Of a stretch of DNA of 33,974 nt, positions 1 through 33,974 are shown piece by piece. The DNA lies in contig JAMXLK010000007.1 of assembly GCA_024281075.1 (NCBI GenBank), positions 1 to 33,974 on the forward strand, written 5' to 3'. The position numbers and the translations under genes were made by a program. Position 1 is the first letter of the stretch; each line of letters opens with the position of its first letter. Origin of the DNA: Vulcanimicrobiia bacterium (GTDB taxonomy: Bacteria > Vulcanimicrobiota > Vulcanimicrobiia > Vulcanimicrobiales > Vulcanimicrobiaceae). A model generated the notes under the pieces. The model made no database searches. It was given only the letters and a program-made list of their open reading frames with translations, and was not told where the DNA came from.

Positions 1-1738
1 TCGCCCAGCCACCGTAGTATATGTTCGTCGTGCCGTTGGGATTGGTGAAGCATTGCGCCGCGTTCGTCGGAAGGAAGTAAGCTAACGTGGCGCCCGATGC
101 CTTGATTTGGTAGTTCGGATTGTTGCAGACTACGTTCTTCGGAAGAAAAATGGTGTCGGTCTTCCACGGTATCTGATCGTAGCCGGCCGCGAACTCCAAG
201 CCTTTCCACGGGTGGAATCCGATCTGCGCTCCGAAAACTTCACTATTGATTTTGCCTAGAAACGATTTACCGGCATTCTGGTTCCATCCACCCTGTAGCG
301 CGATCCAAGGGGTCATCGCGTTGTTAAACGTGTACGATCCGTCAAACCACCACATATTAACGAGATCGTACATTCCGTAGAAATATGCGTCCGCCGCAAA
401 ACCGTGTCCTAAAGCATTAACACGCGGGCCCGACGGATCGAGGTACCCGACTCTGCCCATAGCAAAGCCGTCGGTCTGGATGCCGTTTCCATTTGGCAAA
501 AAGATGTTCGTTGGCAAGCCTGGATTGCCGGCGGGGTAACTCGTCAGCAACGTCTGCCGCGTGAACTGCGAGCTCGTTCGATTCTCGTACTCCAACATGT
601 CGAGCCCTTCGACTGTCAGGCCGCTTGGCCACGTGAAACCAAGGTCGCCGCCGAGATAGGCGGGCGGCTTGAGTCGCGAATCGGCCGCGCTCGAGCTCGC
701 CCACGGAGAGCTCTGTCCGTTCGTGGGTGTCGGCGTCGCAGTGAGAAGCTGCTCGCCGAGCGTTCCGTTCCAGCCGTACTGCTTATACTTCAGATAAGCC
801 TGATAGAACGTGCTGAGCGTAAAGCCGGGCAACGTGTCATCCGGGTTGGTATTCGGTGGAACTTGGGTGACGCAGACCGCGCCCTTGAGATGATTGGCGG
901 GAACGACGCACGGCCCGTCCATCGGATTGGCATAGAGATACGAACCGCCGAGATGCCAGCCGGTACCGACGAAATTGTAGTCGGCGCCTACCGAAACCGC
1001 GGTGTTCCAGCTGGCTTGATTGACGCCTGTCGGACTGTACGACGATGAAGAAAAGTTGTACTGAGCTCCGGGATTATTCGAAGCGTTCTGGCGCGTGAAA
1101 TAATACGATCGCACATATCCCGGAAACGTCCAGCCACTGGGTTTGATCGTCGGCACCGGCGTCGGCGGAGGTGCTTCGGTCGGCACGGGCGGAGCTTCGG
1201 TCGGCGGCGGCGTTGCCGGAATGTAGCGCACGACGACGATGCGGCGATCCGGCACCCACTGCACGTACGCACCCATCCCCTCCGAGATGACGCGCACCGG
1301 AACCAGCACGACGCCTTGATAGACGATCGGCGGCACGTCGAGCGGCCGCGACTCACCGTTGATCAGGACCTCGGGCTTGCCGACGGTCACGGCGACCTGC
1401 GCGCCGGGTTTGCTCACGGTTGCGGTCTTGGTGCCGGCGTCGTACGAAACGGTCGCTCCCATCTGCTCGAACATCGAGCGCAATGGAATGTACAGCGTAC
1501 CGCCGCGCACGAGCGCGGCGAGAACGCGGCCCTGCTTGAGGATGTCAGGACGCGCATAGACGTGACGATCGTTGTAGAGAATCGGAATCTGTCCGGATGG
1601 GGGAGCGCCGAAATCTGCGGCCGGAACCGAGGTGGCTTGTGCGACTGGTGTTGCCTGTGTTGCCGCCAGTGCAAAGCCGGTACTCGATAGAACCATTGCC
1701 GCGGCGACCAGCGCGATGCGAGCGCGAGTCAATAGCAC
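1..1738 (-). CDS. Secreted stalk-domain outer-membrane barrel (porin-like) protein, 3' end outside window
   Basis: The reading frame is open from a GTG at 1738 to the window edge (579 codons, no stop). An AAAGGAG ribosome site lies 10 bases before the GTG. Residues 1-26 form a Sec signal peptide (basic MLLTRAR, hydrophobic core, ALAA). Residues about 51-172 look like a copper amine oxidase N-terminal-like (stalk) domain: IPILYNDR, LYIPLRSMFEQMGA, LVPVRVISEGMGA, WVPDRRIVVV. A Pro/Thr/Glu linker follows to about 200. The rest is rich in Tyr, Trp, Asn and Gly with alternating strands, as expected of an outer-membrane beta-barrel. The stalk domain may anchor the barrel to the periplasm or cell wall, as SLH domains do in other diderm porins; that role is inferred. 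It lies downstream of phoB-phoR-pstB with a Pho-box-like repeat before it, so a phosphate-regulated channel is plausible. Substrate unknown. Confidence 0.75.
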   Translation of the reverse strand, partial: MLLTRARIALVAAAMVLSSTGFALAATQATPVAQATSVPAADFGAPPSGQIPILYNDRHVYARPDILKQGRVLAALVRGGTLYIPLRSMFEQMGATVSYDAGTKTATVSKPGAQVAVTVGKPEVLINGESRPLDVPPIVYQGVVLVPVRVISEGMGAYVQWVPDRRIVVVRYIPATPPPTEAPPVPTEAPPPTPVPTIKPSGWTFPGYVRSYYFTRQNASNNPGAQYNFSSSSYSPTGVNQASWNTAVSVGADYNFVGTGWHLGGSYLYANPMDGPCVVPANHLKGAVCVTQVPPNTNPDDTLPGFTLSTFYQAYLKYKQYGWNGTLGEQLLTATPTPTNGQSSPWASSSAADSRLKPPAYLGGDLGFTWPSGLTVEGLDMLEYENRTSSQFTRQTLLTSYPAGNPGLPTNIFLPNGNGIQTDGFAMGRVGYLDPSGPRVNALGHGFAADAYFYGMYDLVNMWWFDGSYTFNNAMTPWIALQGGWNQNAGKSFLGKINSEVFGAQIGFHPWKGLEFAAGYDQIPWKTDTIFLPKNVVCNNPNYQIKASGATLAYFLPTNAAQCFTNPNGTTNIYYGGWA

Positions 1739-1796
1739 GGTAGGGGTATCTCCTTTACGACTGCGTGGCTATGTAGCAACCAGTCTAACGGCCGCT

Positions 1797-1827
1797 GATT
1801 AAGAGCGGTTTAACGTTCGCTTAACCG
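1797..1827 (-). promoter_or_regulatory. Pho-box-like direct repeats upstream of the porin
   Basis: On the minus strand three 11-bp units follow one another: GTTAAGCGAAC, GTTAAACCGCT and CTTAATCAGCG. The TTAA cores start every 11 bases (plus-strand TTAA at 1799, 1810 and 1821). This one-helical-turn spacing is the hallmark of PhoB/PhoP/SphR binding sites, and the cyanobacterial type has YTTAACC-like units. The block ends about 60 bases before the porin start. A weak -10-like TAGACT follows it. The first two units also form an imperfect inverted repeat, so a weak terminator for pstB is an alternative reading, but no T-run follows. Confidence 0.55.
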
Positions 1828-1854
1828 CTTTGCTTGACCGCGCCAGTTTTTAGC

Positions 1855-2646
1855 TTATCCGAAGCGCCCCGTAATGTAGTCTTCGGTGCGCTTATCGCGC
1901 GGCTTGGTAAAGATCGTCGCAGTCGTATCCGCCTCGACGAGATCGCCCAAGAGAAAGAAAGCCGTGTTGTCGCTGATGCGCGCCGCTTGTTGCATCGAAT
2001 GCGTCACGATGACAACCGTGTACTGCTTCTTAAGATCGTCGATCAAATCTTCGATCTTACTCGTCGCGATCGGATCGAGCGCCGAGGCTGGCTCGTCCAT
2101 CAAGATCACTTCGGGATCGACGGCGAGGCAACGCGCGATGCAGAGCCGCTGCTGCTGGCCGCCGGAAAGCGCGAGCGCCGACCGATCGAGCCGGTCCTTG
2201 ACTTCGTCCCACAACGCGGCCTGACGCAAACTGCGCTCGCAGATCTCCGTCAACGCGGCGCTTCGCCGTTCGCCGTGAATACGCGGCCCGTAGACGACGT
2301 TGTCGAAGATCGATTTCGGAAACGGATTCGGCCGCTGGAAAACCATTCCGATGCGGTAGCGGATCGTTACCGGATCGATATCCGCAGCATAGATGTCTTG
2401 ATCGTCCAGCAAGACGCGTCCGTCCACGCGAGCGCCGGGCGTAAGGTCGTGCATGCGATTGAGCGCTCGAATGAACGTCGACTTGCCGCAGCCAGAGGGG
2501 CCGATCAACGCCATCACCCGATTGGCCGGAATGCGCAGCGATGCATTCTTGATCGCGCGGAACGCGCCGTAATAGACGTCTAAATTCTCGACGTCGATTT
2601 TCGTCTCGGTGGAGAGCGCAGCGGGCTCCGTCGCATTGGCAAACAT
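1855..2646 (-). CDS. pstB: Phosphate ABC transporter ATP-binding protein PstB
   Basis: This is the ATPase subunit of the high-affinity phosphate importer PstSCAB. From the ATG at 2646 it encodes 263 residues, the usual PstB length. Walker [10 protein letters not shown] is at 49-57, the Q-loop region [11 protein letters not shown] at about 102-112, the ABC signature LSGGQQQR at 160-167 and Walker B ILMDEP at 181-186. The H-loop [12 protein letters not shown] follows, and the protein ends in the PstB-typical [10 protein letters not shown]. The frame is open further upstream into phoR. An ATG at 2715 would add 23 residues, but the 2646 start leaves the usual short tail before the first strand ([12 protein letters not shown]). 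It follows phoR by 55 bases. The permease genes pstC/pstA and the binding protein are not in the window. Walker B continues as ASALDP rather than TSALDP, a common variant. Confidence 0.95.
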
Positions 2647-2701
2647 CGGCGCTTCGTCTTTCGGCGCACTTTCTTCCGATGCCCGTCCGGAGTTAAGAAC
2701 G

Positions 2702-3892
2702 TTAAGAGGCCGCATCGCGTTTGATCCGCATGATCGGAAGCCGAATGGTGAAGGCGGTCCCGCGGCCGAGCATCGATTCCGCGGAAATTGCACCGCCGTG
2801 TGCGTCGATGATGCCTTTGACGATAGCGAGGCCGAGCCCGGCACCGCTGCTGCCGCGTTTGCGCGAGCGATCGACGACGTAAAAGCGCTCGAAGATGTGC
2901 GGCAGATCGCGATATGGGATGCCTTCGCCGGTATCGCGTACGCGCAAGACTGCATCGCTGTCGCGCGCGTCGACCTCAACCCGTATGCGTCCGCCGCCGC
3001 GCGTATGCCGTAGCGCGTTGTCGATCAAATTGACGAAGACTTGGGCCAAGCGATCCGGATCCGCTTCGACGCGAACCGGGCGCAACGCGGTCAACTCCAG
3101 CTCAATCCCCTTATTCGCCGCTTGCTGGTCGAAGGACGCAACGATCGGCCGCGCGATCTCTTCGAGGTCGACGTCGCGCACGTTGAGCTTGAGCTGCCCC
3201 GATTCGGCACGCGCCTGCTCCAGCAGCTGTCCCACGAGCGCTGCCAGACGATCCACTTGGGCAAGTGCTTGCGGCACGAAGAGGTCGCGCGCTTCCTGTT
3301 CGGGCGCTTCCAGAACCGTTTCGAGCATGAGCTTGATGGACGAGAGCGGCGTTCGCAGTTCGTGCGACACGTTGGAGAGAAACTCTTTGCGGGCGCGATC
3401 CAGCCGAAGCAGTGCGGTTTGATCGTCGGAAAAGATCACGACGCGGCGCGACTCCTCGTCGCTGTCGGTGAGCGGATAGATGGAAACGCGATAGGTGCGC
3501 TGGCCGGTCGCGCCCGTCAGCATCAGCGGCGCGACCGAGGCCTCGCCGCGCAGCGCGTCGCCGATGCGCCGTTCGAGTTCGACGTTTGGAATTGCCTCAA
3601 TAACGTGAACGTTCAACGCCCGATCCGGATCAAATCCGAACGTCGTGCCGGCAGCCGCATTGGCGAACTCCACGCGGCACGTTCGGTCGACGAGCACGAC
3701 GCCGATCGGCAGTGCGTGTACGAGCCGCGCAAAAGCGTTATCGAAGGAAATCGGCGCCGATGCGGGCGCACGCAACGGGGCCGGCTCCGCGACCGGAGCC
3801 GCCGATTCGGAAGTGCGAAAAAGCCTCGCAAGAAGAACGCCGCCGGCGGCGCCGGCAATCAACGCGAGAAGCACCCACTCGAGCGGGGTCAA
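2702..3892 (-). CDS. phoR: Phosphate-regulon sensor histidine kinase PhoR
   Basis: Membrane sensor kinase of the PhoR-PhoB pair, 396 residues. One N-terminal membrane helix (about 4-24) is followed by an Ala/Pro linker and a PAS domain (about 50-150). The HisKA dimerisation domain carries the phospho-accepting His177 in [17 protein letters not shown]. The HATPase domain has an N-box [10 protein letters not shown] (288-297), a G1 box DTGEGIP (320-326) and a later [11 protein letters not shown] box. The start is a TTG 15 bases after the phoB stop, with TAAGGA upstream; a GTG six codons downstream is an alternative. Placement between phoB and pstB and the PhoR-like architecture (short N-terminus, PAS, no large periplasmic domain) support PhoR over another kinase. 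Signal input would probably come through PstB/PhoU; phoU is not seen here. Confidence 0.9.
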
Positions 3893-31127: not shown

Positions 31128-31515
31128 TTGCTACCGCGCTCAACACGCCATTGACGAACCGCCCGGAGTCCTCGGTCGAAAACCGCTTCGCCAGCGCGAC
31201 CGCTTCATTGATCGCGACCGCTTGCGGAGTCTCGGGGCGGCAGTGTAGTTCAAAAGTTGCCATTTCCAGTAGGAGGCGGTCGATCGTCGGCAAGCGCTCG
31301 ATCGTCCAGCCTTGCAAGAGCGGACTGACGATGCGATCGGCCTCGTCGGCGTATTCGAGCGTTCCCAGCGCAAGTTCCTCGACGAAGGTGCGTTGGTCGT
31401 TGTCGGCGTTCTCGCCGACGACGTCGCGAACCGCCTCGGCGGGTTCGCGGTCGCCGATTGCTATGGAATAGAGCACCTGCAGCGCCTGCTCTCGGGCGAG
31501 GCGGCGCGAAGTCAT
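31114..31515 (-). CDS. nusB: Transcription antitermination factor NusB
   Basis: A 133-residue all-helical RNA-binding protein of rRNA antitermination complexes. It has the family's RRLAREQALQVLYS start, IDRLLLEMATFEL, AINEAVALAKRFSTEDSGRFVNGVL. The ATG overlaps the accC stop (ATGA). Placement between accC and a PBP is uncommon, though accC-nusB adjacency occurs in many bacteria. Confidence 0.95.
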   Translation of the reverse strand: MTSRRLAREQALQVLYSIAIGDREPAEAVRDVVGENADNDQRTFVEELALGTLEYADEADRIVSPLLQGWTIERLPTIDRLLLEMATFELHCRPETPQAVAINEAVALAKRFSTEDSGRFVNGVLSAVANAKA

Positions 31516-32873
31516 CGCGCGCTCACTTCGCCGTTGGTGAGAATGCGCGCGGGAATGAGCTCGACGTCGTAGCGTCCGCTGCGGAATGCCGAGCTCGCGA
31601 GAATCTCGAGGCAGATCGCGATCGTCGTATTTACCCCTTCGACGAGCGTCTCGCGCAACGCGCGTTCCATCCGCGCAATGGCGACGTCGCGCGTATCGCC
31701 GAACGCGACGACTTTAGCGATCATCGAGTCGTAGTACGGCGGAATCGTCGCGCCTGCATAGAGATGCGTATCAACGCGAATGCCCGGACCGCCGGGAAAG
31801 ACGAGCTTCGAGACGGTCCCCGCGGCGGGCGCGAAGTTGTTGCGCGGATCTTCGGCGTTGATGCGGCATTCGATGGCGTGGCCGCGCGACATGAGATCGG
31901 ATTGCGTATAGCCCAGCGGCTCCCCCGCGGCGATTCGAATCTGCTCCTTGACGAGATCGATGTTGAAGACCATCTCCGTCACCGGATGCTCGACCTGAAT
32001 CCGCGTGTTCATCTCCATGAAGTATGCCTCGTCGCCCGAGACGAGAAACTCGAGCGTTCCGGCATTGGTGTAGCCGACGTAGCGTGACGCTTGCAACGCC
32101 ATATCGTGCAATGCGTCCCGCGCCCGCAGGGAAAGATTCGGCGCCGGCGTCTCTTCGACGATCTTCTGATGCGCGGGCTTCTGTACCGAACAGTCGCGCT
32201 CGCCCAAGTGGACGATGTTGCCGAACTCGTCGCCGAGGACTTGCACCTCGATGTGCCGCGGCTCGCGAATCAAACGCTCGAGGTAGACGCGACCGTCTTT
32301 AAAGCTCGCCTCTGCCTCGGCGGTCGCGCCGGCGTACGCGCGCGCCAGCTCGTTCTCGGCATTGACGACCCGCATTCCGCGTCCGCCGCCGCCGGCAGTC
32401 GCTTTGAGCAGCAGCGGATAACCGATCGATCCCGCTGCATGCTGCGCTTCCTCGATCGAATCCAGAATGCCGCTTCCCGGCGTCGTCGCGACGCCCGCTT
32501 CGCGCACGACCCGCTTGGCCGTCGCCTTATCGCCCATCAGCGCAATCACGCTCGGCTTAGGTCCGATGAACGTCAGACCGTGGTCGGCGCAAATTTCGGC
32601 GAACCGCGCGTTCTCGGCGAGGAATCCATACCCGGGATGGATGGCGTCGCAGTTCGTAATGAGCGCCGTCGAAATAATGTTGGGAATATTCAAATACGAA
32701 CGCGCCGCCGGGCCGGGACCGACGCAGAAGGCTTCGTCGGCCTGACGAACGTGCATCGAATCGCGATCGGCTTCGGAAAAGATCGCGACGGTAGCCATGC
32801 CGAGCTCTTGACAAGCTCGATTGATGCGCAGCGCAATCTCGCCGCGATTGGCGATCAAGACCTTCTTGAAAAT
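31512..32873 (-). CDS. accC: Acetyl-CoA carboxylase biotin carboxylase subunit (probable AUU start)
   Basis: A 453-residue ATP-grasp enzyme that carboxylates biotin on BCCP for fatty acid synthesis. Motifs are FKKVLIANRGEIALRI, PGYGFLAENARFA, FIGPKP, KATAGGGGRGMRVV, ERDCSVQKPAHQK, FMEMNTRIQVEHPVTE and HAIECRINAEDP. The frame has no ATG, GTG or TTG that would keep FKKV. An ATT at 32873 gives MFKKVLIANRGE, the canonical start, with GAGG nine bases upstream. A TTG at 32858 would remove five conserved residues and has its GG too close. The usual QRRHQK is QKPAHQK, one residue longer. It follows the FolK fusion by two bases. Confidence 0.94.
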   Translation of the reverse strand: MFKKVLIANRGEIALRINRACQELGMATVAIFSEADRDSMHVRQADEAFCVGPGPAARSYLNIPNIISTALITNCDAIHPGYGFLAENARFAEICADHGLTFIGPKPSVIALMGDKATAKRVVREAGVATTPGSGILDSIEEAQHAAGSIGYPLLLKATAGGGGRGMRVVNAENELARAYAGATAEAEASFKDGRVYLERLIREPRHIEVQVLGDEFGNIVHLGERDCSVQKPAHQKIVEETPAPNLSLRARDALHDMALQASRYVGYTNAGTLEFLVSGDEAYFMEMNTRIQVEHPVTEMVFNIDLVKEQIRIAAGEPLGYTQSDLMSRGHAIECRINAEDPRNNFAPAAGTVSKLVFPGGPGIRVDTHLYAGATIPPYYDSMIAKVVAFGDTRDVAIARMERALRETLVEGVNTTIAICLEILASSAFRSGRYDVELIPARILTNGEVSAR

Positions 32874-32875
32874 AG

Positions 32876-33763
32876 TTAGCGTCCTCGCGAAATCAAAAAG
32901 AGCGCCTGTCCGTACTCGACCGCGGCGCCGTCGGTTGCCGCGACCGAAACGATACGGCCTGCGCTCGTGCTGTGTACCGGCGTTCGAATGCCGAGCGCTT
33001 CGATATAGCCTAACTCGCGATCGCCGTCGACGATCTCGCCGTCCACCGGTGCAGGCCGGCCGAGACGGAAGATTCCGACTAGATCGGCCTTGATCGTATC
33101 CACGCGCGCTGAGCCGATTTCGGTTGCGCCGTCGCCGCCCGAAGCATCGCTGGATGCGCGGCGCCGCCCTGCAGCGACTTCTACCGCATCGTCGCCGCGC
33201 TCGATGCGCACGCGCGCCGCGCCGCTCTCGGCGAGAAAGCGCGCAAGCGCGCCGATGCGCTCGGCCACTGACGAGATTTGTTGCTCGGGCATCGCCGCTA
33301 CGTTTTCGCGCTCGATACGCACGACCCCCGCGAGCTCCGATTCGGCAAGCGCGTCGCGCAGCGTCGCAAAGCGGCCGTCGATTTCCGCAAGCGGAACGAG
33401 CACGAAAGCGCGCTCGCGCAAATACGGGTGTGGAACGCGCAGATTGGGCTCGTTGAGCTCGAGATCGTCGTAAAGCAGTAGGTCGAGATCGATCGTGCGG
33501 GGTGCCCAATGCTCGTCGCGCACGCGGCCCATACGTGATTCGATTGCGCGCAGCCGATCGAGCAGCGTTCGCGCGGGCAATGCCGTTTCGATTGCGACGA
33601 CGGCGTTGAGATACCACGGCTGATCGGGATTGCCCCACGGCGCGGTACGATAGAAGGACGAGACGCGCGTGATGCTGCCGAGCGCCGCAATCTCGTGCAG
33701 CGCGCGCTCGGCGTAAGCGGCGCGATCGCCGAGATTGCTACCGATTCCGATGTATGCGAGCAC
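32876..33763 (-). CDS. folK: FolK (HPPK) fused to a BCCP-like domain lacking the biotinyl lysine
   Basis: A 295-residue two-part protein. Residues 1-157 are a complete 6-hydroxymethyl-7,8-dihydropterin pyrophosphokinase (folate pathway): IGIGSNLGDR, FYRTAPWGNPDQPWYLNAV and RTIDLDLLLYDD with Asp92/Asp94. Residues 158-295 match full-length acetyl-CoA carboxylase BCCP: an N-terminal helix starting MPEQQISS, VRIERGDDAVEV, a Ser/Gly/Asp/Ala linker, and the lipoyl/biotinyl fold from TIKADLVGIFRLGRP to VEYGQALFLIS. Where BCCP has EAMKM this has EALGI, so the biotinylated lysine is glycine 258. The frame is unbroken. An internal ATG at 33292 falls exactly at the domain junction. Its position immediately before accC suggests the second half relates to the carboxylase. 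The start is GTG, overlapping folB by 26 bases. Confidence 0.9.
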   Translation of the reverse strand: MLAYIGIGSNLGDRAAYAERALHEIAALGSITRVSSFYRTAPWGNPDQPWYLNAVVAIETALPARTLLDRLRAIESRMGRVRDEHWAPRTIDLDLLLYDDLELNEPNLRVPHPYLRERAFVLVPLAEIDGRFATLRDALAESELAGVVRIERENVAAMPEQQISSVAERIGALARFLAESGAARVRIERGDDAVEVAAGRRRASSDASGGDGATEIGSARVDTIKADLVGIFRLGRPAPVDGEIVDGDRELGYIEALGIRTPVHSTSAGRIVSVAATDGAAVEYGQALFLISRGR

Positions 33764-33974
33764 GGGTAAGCGTTACCGACGGCGTGGCACCGCCGAGTAT
33801 CCGCGGCTTCGAGAGCGACACCGTCGCCCGCACGACGCGCTCGTCGGCGAACATCGCATCGAGCAGATCGCTGCCGAGCCGTTCGAGCAGGGCATATGAC
33901 GTCGTGGATACGATGCGGATGACTTGTGCGTGCAGTGCGTCGTAATCGAGCGTTTGTGCGAGATCGTCGCTGCG
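33738..33974 (-). CDS. folB: Dihydroneopterin aldolase, C-terminal 78 residues (5' end outside window)
   Basis: The frame enters at the right edge and stops with TAG at 33740-33738. Visible sequence SDDLAQTLDYDALHAQVIRIV, followed by a helix with LLERLGSDLLDAMF and strands RVVRATVSLSKP, matches the second half of FolB, which splits dihydroneopterin in folate synthesis. FolB-FolK is a common pair. The stop lies 26 bases inside the folK fusion gene, so the two are likely coupled. The N-terminal half with the active-site start cannot be judged. Confidence 0.85.
   Translation of the reverse strand, partial: RSDDLAQTLDYDALHAQVIRIVSTTSYALLERLGSDLLDAMFADERVVRATVSLSKPRILGGATPSVTLTRARIHRNR

Follow-up and report, generated by a model that had tools for sequence, protein, structure and literature searches.

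Acetyl-CoA carboxylase commits carbon to fatty acids, and EAMKM is the biotin-carrying motif of its carrier protein, BCCP. Bacterial "glue" subunits of the epsilon type, from actinobacteria, have another fold. According to the available part of PMC11926652, certain bacterial acyl-CoA carboxylases have such non-catalytic "glue" subunits, and plant BADC (Arabidopsis BADC1-3) is a BCCP relative without a biotinylation motif that coexists with true BCCP in the heteromeric acetyl-CoA carboxylase; the same text calls BADC unique to the plant enzyme and treats it as a glue or cap promoting formation of the BC-BCCP complex. In contrast, the accessible portion of PMC7712654 presents BADC as a competitor of BCCP for BC, so that glue versus inhibitor is disputed between these two papers. 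A further point of comparison is Chloroflexus aurantiacus BC1 (a BC fused to BCCP), in which, in the part of PMC11077971 open to us, the BCCP beta hairpin drives formation of BC tetramers.

The protein described here resembles plant BADC in being a BCCP relative without a biotinylation motif and in coexisting with a true BCCP. It is unlike plant BADC in that it is bacterial, is encoded beside accC and is sometimes fused to FolK. The gene lies in a 33,974-nucleotide stretch (the window) that is one whole contig (C7) of a draft genome of 2.47 Mb, 86.5% complete. In a scan of named genomes, the best relatives of the fusion were from Candidatus Eremiobacterota / Vulcanimicrobiota MAGs. The gene order on the minus strand is the end of folB, then the folK-BCCP-like fusion, and then, directly, accC. 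The features are as follows:

33738..33974, minus strand: end of folB (PF02152), cut by the contig end
32876..33763, minus strand: FolK (HPPK) and lysine-less BCCP-like protein in one open frame, 295 aa, GTG start
33377..33754, minus strand: HPPK domain, residues 4-129 (PF01288, E 6.7e-41; TIGR01498 above cut-off)
33305..33329, minus strand: bipartite DNA element, GGGGG ... CGAA, in front of the internal ATG, with CGAA at -16
32879..33292, minus strand: BCCP-like part, residues 158-295, from the internal ATG at 33290-33292 (alignment A1, E. coli BCCP profile match)
33173..33286, minus strand: predicted N-terminal helix (160-180) and beta hairpin (184-197), from the AlphaFold model, aligning with the BCCP N-terminus
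32888..33103, minus strand: biotinyl-like beta fold, residues 221-292, predicted with pLDDT about 97
32987..33001, minus strand: EALGI replacing EAMKM, with Gly (32990-32992) at the biotin-lysine position
31512..32876, minus strand: accC, biotin carboxylase (start codon approximate)

The first-pass annotation had described an unbroken 295-codon frame joining a complete HPPK to a complete BCCP-like protein, a motif that reads EALGI instead of EAMKM, and an internal ATG at the domain boundary. Each of these is borne out by the sequence, with the addition that the frame is on the minus strand, a point absent from that annotation; read on the plus strand, 32876-33763 contains stops. The HPPK domain is full length and above cut-off, and the 50 Foldseek matches shown for the fusion are all HPPK structures, alone or within fused folate enzymes. 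When the fusion is modeled with AlphaFold (mean pLDDT 86, pTM 0.55), the HPPK is followed by a loose linker, then by the helix and hairpin of residues 160-197, and finally by the biotinyl-like fold. The low pTM of this model suggests that neither half is held in a set position relative to the other.

Standard family models recover the BCCP-like half poorly. It scores 18.3 bits against a cut-off of 22.1 for Pfam Biotin_lipoyl, and 22.5 bits (fusion) or 24.7 bits (BCCP-like part alone) against a cut-off of 115.2 for TIGR00531, although the latter test is weak, since the canonical AccB of the same genome scores 106.7 and is also just under the cut-off. The profile A1, built from 61 relatives picked for diversity among 90 loci in the window's family, aligns with residues 24-176 of E. 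coli BCCP (4hr7_B) at an E value of 6e-12, which indicates that the two share the N-terminal helix/strand region of BCCP as well as the biotinyl fold. The alignment has a five-residue gap opposite the tpspd of the E. coli thumb, and the window protein is five residues shorter there than E. coli BCCP. Nine A1 columns are invariant, including E98, L100 and G101, so that the E, L and G of the motif are present in 61/61 sequences. The position of the biotin lysine is Gly in all of these and in 90/90 loci of the family. Because the window protein has neither the biotin lysine nor the full thumb, we do not class it as AccB. It is like AccB/BCCP (TIGR00531) in aligning over the whole of E. coli BCCP, including the N-terminal helix, and in being encoded beside accC, as is the BCCP gene in many of the 74 BCCP-type loci described below. 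It is unlike AccB/BCCP in lacking the biotin lysine, in its short thumb region, in scoring far under the TIGR00531 cut-off and in the presence of a separate canonical AccB. In a broader alignment (A2) of 36 diverse rows, four of them from Armatimonadota and Chloroflexota, the thumb block (the residues absent in the window) is empty in 27 rows, while the other 9, all from other families of Eremiobacterota, have 2 to 5 residues in it. The short thumb region is thus true of the window's family and of most rows, not of all.

A biotinyl/lipoyl fold raises the possibility of a lipoate or biotin carrier that uses a different lysine, and some distant relatives do have Lys in the motif. However, A1 has no column with a conserved lysine (Lys reaches at most 49% of the 61 rows), and we regard such a carrier as very improbable.

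The first-pass annotation had also proposed looking for a second BCCP with an intact lysine motif, and the genome has one. It is a 146-aa AccB on contig C115 (G000), with the thumb stretch and the motif VLEAMKL, located between hisS-like and gmhA-like frames (identified by eye) and not near accC. By its motif, this protein is a candidate for biotinylation, and so the BCCP-like protein coexists with what appears to be a true BCCP. AccD and one BPL/LplA-family protein are also encoded in this genome. Another contig (C151, locus L021, positions 1-3862) carries acyl-CoA carboxyltransferase-like, small and enoyl-reductase-like frames and a second accC cut by the contig end (identified partly by eye), a separate carboxylase cluster. 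Across the phylum, a profile of eight canonical AccB sequences (A4, threshold 1e-12) matched 109 of 121 genomes, one of them (G066) as a fragment only. All of the best 30 canonical loci have LEAMKL and the FY....P thumb stretch, and within flanks of roughly 1.5 kb none of these 30 has accC, folK or the BCCP-like gene nearby.

The BCCP-like family is present in 13 of the 14 Eremiobacterota families sampled, and in the 123 loci that were read (90 from the window's family and 33 from 12 other families), accC is directly downstream in 122 and the biotin lysine is absent in 116. In the window's family, 97 of 99 genomes match the BCCP-like part, although for some of these a canonical BCCP is the sole match. 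The 90 loci are one per genome; genomes G013, G015, G027, G043, G046, G051 and G063, with weak, partial or canonical matches, are outside this sample, and two of them (G013 and G015), which are further members of the window's genus, have no such locus. A same-strand accC follows in 89 of the 90 loci, and in the remaining one (L190) the contig ends. The gap between the two genes is -14 to +24 bases in 87 loci and 118 and 133 bases in two. In the other 12 families, a same-strand accC follows in 33/33 loci, with a gap of -11 to +42.

Among the 121 phylum genomes that are at least 80% complete, A1 matched 115. In five of these (G015, G027, G043, G051 and G132), the match is by a canonical or weak hit only, and removing them leaves, on our reading of the match table, the BCCP-like protein in 110 of 121 genomes. 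Five of the 121 seemingly have the canonical protein only. Neither the BCCP-like protein nor canonical AccB was found, at the thresholds used, in six (G099, G100 and G101 of family f4; G135, G136 and G137 of family f14), and these include all three genomes of f4. These six genomes are perhaps without this fatty-acid pathway.

This distribution bears on whether the gene is a decaying, functionless copy of accB, a reading that the lost catalytic lysine and the weak matches to BCCP models might suggest. Same-genus pairs (the 10 nearest, not mutually independent) give a dN/dS of 0.13 to 0.26 for the BCCP-like part, 0.05 to 0.32 for folK and 0.06 to 0.09 for accC, indicating that the BCCP-like part and the folK half are both under purifying selection. 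Together with the nine invariant columns in 61 sequences and the presence of the protein in 110 of 121 phylum genomes, these values make decay highly implausible, and we rejected a pseudogene on the basis of conservation and dN/dS.

A second alternative is a competitive inhibitor, in which the lysine-less domain would fill the AccC site and lower carboxylase activity without helping assembly. Competition of plant BADC with BCCP for access to BC, as put forward in the available part of PMC7712654, and the invariance of the motif E, L and G in 61 rows are both consistent with this. In contrast, an accC neighbor in nearly every genome would fit a standing subunit as well or better, and a glue role has been argued for plants (PMC11926652, available part). 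We think an inhibitor unlikely, although it retains some weight.

The main result against a uniform loss of the lysine comes from f3, another family of the window's class. At the 33 loci outside the window's family, the biotin position has no Lys in 26. All four f2 loci have Gly; the 13 f3 loci divide into 6 with Arg and 7 with Lys; and the other 16 have Gly, Arg, Asn or Ser. The Lys-bearing motifs of f3 are EALKL and EALKV, and judging from these motifs biotinylation may still take place in such members. Within one genus, two close f3 proteins (L224 and L225) have Arg and Lys, respectively, at this position, a difference that argues that the lysine is not needed. Lysine-bearing relatives had been named in the first-pass annotation as a finding that would speak against its proposal. 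Such relatives do exist at a distance, in 7 of 13 f3 loci as opposed to 6 with Arg, and so speak in part against it.

Outside the phylum, the scan of named genomes with the fusion gave 343 relatives, from which 80 loci were kept, a sample picked by likeness to the query. Six of these (L054-L059) match the HPPK and 74 are BCCP-type. Lys is present in the motif of 69 of the BCCP-type loci. The five without it (L065, L067, L123, L125 and L133) come from Chloroflexi or Armatimonadetes, and four of their genomes (those of L067, L123, L125 and L133) encode a canonical BCCP in addition. L065 (4848-5321, Chloroflexi) keeps the thumb stretch, has EALQV for EAMKM and groups with canonical BCCPs, and apparently lost the lysine independently. 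At L125, the BCCP-like gene stands between a frame resembling accA and one resembling fabD, and accC comes after the latter (names assigned by eye).

With A2, 119 of 121 Armatimonadota genomes are matched, mostly twice. The best 30 loci lack Lys in 20 cases and have it in 10, and a same-strand accC is 343 to 579 bases downstream in 25, with none found in the other five. The loci that keep Lys (L383, L385, L391-L393, L397, L399, L403, L404 and L406, of EAMK, ESMK or ESLK type) could show whether the paralogue lineage once carried biotin. In three Armatimonadota loci that were inspected by eye, a short frame resembling a prepilin-type protein is located between the BCCP-like gene and accC (L379, 1932-2345, reverse complement; L386, 1844-2257; L399, 2018-2413). 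In Chloroflexota, A2 matches 84 of 151 genomes; 19 of the best 30 loci lack Lys and 11 have EAMK, and no accC was found in the flanks of these 30. In Cyanobacteriota, A2 matches 193 of 194 genomes, and the best 30 loci all keep EAMK and the thumb. The first-pass annotation had credited cyanobacteria as well as plants with BADC proteins. No BADC was seen among the best 30 loci from the 193 matching cyanobacterial genomes, all of which are canonical, although A2 also catches canonical BCCPs and could miss a weaker paralogue below rank 30; in the accessible text of PMC11926652, BADC is restricted to plants.

In a tree of 84 rows, a single change separates the 36 rows of A2, among which are four Lys-bearing f3 rows, from the groups labelled canonical (support 85/85; 87% of bootstrap trees). 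In one group (90/84) are 34 of the A2 rows, and the other two, L246 (f5) and L249 (f7), are on the canonical side. Because the tree has many long branches and 29 open forks, we consider an ancient AccB paralogue to be the likely, rather than proven, origin of the BCCP-like family. Because Lys is present in 7 of 33 distant Eremiobacterota loci and in 10 of the best 30 Armatimonadota loci, some members of the family may carry biotin.

The fusion with FolK is much less widespread than the BCCP-like gene. The search of related genomes for the fusion, another of the first-pass suggestions, was successful: among the 90 loci in the window's family, the two genes are joined in 21 and folK is a frame of its own in 31, and the fetched flank of the other 38 gave no folK match (this flank is about 1.5 kb in 37 of them and missing in L166, which is cut by the contig). 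The window's own genus has the fusion in 15 of 16 loci, and in the sixteenth, L026, a stop separates the genes; among the fused loci of this genus, the contig ends inside folK in L027 and the frame in L032 holds two N. Six other fusions are found in six other genera (L050, L141, L151, L175, L185 and L186). Assembly error is unlikely as the source of the fusion and was rejected in view of the 15 fused loci of the same genus, which are from separate genomes. In two genomes counted among the 38, a longer stretch places folK further upstream, at about 2.1 kb in L057 and 3.4 kb in L059, showing that folK and the BCCP-like gene stay loosely near each other.

These observations allow the folate connection to be weighed. 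The first-pass annotation had inferred that the fusion links folate and fatty-acid synthesis. The 21 fused loci and the two with folK loosely near are in keeping with that inference, but because 69 of 90 loci are unfused they argue for it weakly at best. A bifunctional HPPK/carboxylase-subunit fusion that couples the two pathways would be consistent with the fused state of 15/16 same-genus loci and of the six loci in six other genera, with purifying selection on both halves, and with the more distant folK (2.1 and 3.4 kb upstream) of two loci from the no-folK count. However, the unfused majority (31 with separate folK and 38 with none in the fetched flank), the DNA element that precedes the internal ATG in 16 of the 19 fused loci having such an ATG, and the lack of a fixed domain orientation in the model all point away from it, and we consider it improbable. 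We read the fusion as secondary, a merger of neighboring genes, and the BCCP-like part as the probable functional unit; the protein is ordinary as a fusion and notable as a family.

An ATG is found near the start of the BCCP-like domain in 19 of the 21 fused loci. The sequence CGAA is present at -19 to -14 from the start in 16/19 fused loci, 34/35 loci with no folK and 15/24 loci with separate folK, compared with a background of 351/6384 for all ATGs, 1/60 for accC starts and 7/28 for canonical accB starts; the element was found by inspecting these same sites, and the counts describe it and do not test it. In 45 non-redundant sites aligned on CGAA, a second block, GG(G/A), is located about 18 bases further upstream. 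GG(G/A) and CGAA are at the same place in 65 loci whatever the gene upstream, including inside fused folK frames. Since the element keeps its place whatever gene is upstream, the internal ATG (33292) is probably still used and a short BCCP-like protein is probably still made, which renders plausible the separate short product that had been suggested. Judging from the position of the element, use of this start might depend on a promoter that leaves almost no leader or on an atypical ribosome site. Classical Shine-Dalgarno pairing is stronger at the fused loci (mean of -4.24 kcal/mol, n=19) than at 65 other ATGs (-2.15 kcal/mol), while for the no-folK loci there is no difference (-4.40 versus -4.27 kcal/mol), and the window's own site has only -0.2, values that do not decide for such pairing at the internal ATG. 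The GG(G/A)...CGAA element may serve as a promoter whose transcript has hardly any leader, and it might mark out a regulon.

Based on the gene neighborhood, the motif and the coexisting canonical AccB, we consider it fairly probable that the BCCP-like paralogue is a non-catalytic, BADC-like subunit of acetyl-CoA carboxylase, with the FolK join secondary and the short form probably still made. In the mechanism that we propose, an AccB paralogue would have lost the biotin lysine, shortened its thumb region and been inherited together with accC. Using the helix and hairpin of BCCP type at its N-terminus together with the biotinyl-like fold, the protein would bind AccC and/or AccB and thereby control how acetyl-CoA carboxylase assembles or how active it is, in a manner similar to plant BADC. 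Fusion with FolK would be a later merger, with the short protein probably still produced from the internal ATG. In an AlphaFold model of the BCCP-like part linked to AccC, pTM is 0.73 and the N-terminal hairpin is not firmer than in the part modeled alone. Chloroflexus aurantiacus BC1 comes from a phylum that also has lysine-less paralogues; the protein here is unlike BC1 in that the BC1 BCCP keeps EAMKM and is biotinylated. By analogy, the BC1 hairpin may be a hint to the role of the N-terminal hairpin here. As a proposed non-catalytic subunit that would help carboxylase assembly, the BCCP-like protein also resembles the bacterial "glue" subunits mentioned in the accessible part of PMC11926652.

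A BADC-like mode of working is our best guess, and we do not class the protein as BADC, the likeness resting on sequence and gene context. No BADC-named entry is among the 53 PDB sequences matched by the A1 profile, and we found no bacterial BADC in print in the open-licence literature, which leaves most subscription journals outside. A wider proposition, for which we see an even balance of probability, is that a standing lineage of non-catalytic acetyl-CoA carboxylase subunits, usually lysine-less and often thumbless, extends across Eremiobacterota, Armatimonadota and parts of Chloroflexota, and is of BADC type and older than or parallel to the plant one. As part of that proposition, the paralogue in Eremiobacterota would take the place of accB beside accC, with the active BCCP gene elsewhere.

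Because the BCCP-like gene is so widely kept, its product probably helps or regulates fatty-acid synthesis. If this is true, the accC neighbor in these phyla should not be assumed to be a biotin carrier. A BADC-type role has so far been described in plants, and here it would belong to a widely kept bacterial family. A small bacterial version encoded beside accC would make both the supposed uniqueness of BADC to plants and the question of glue versus inhibitor testable by reconstitution.
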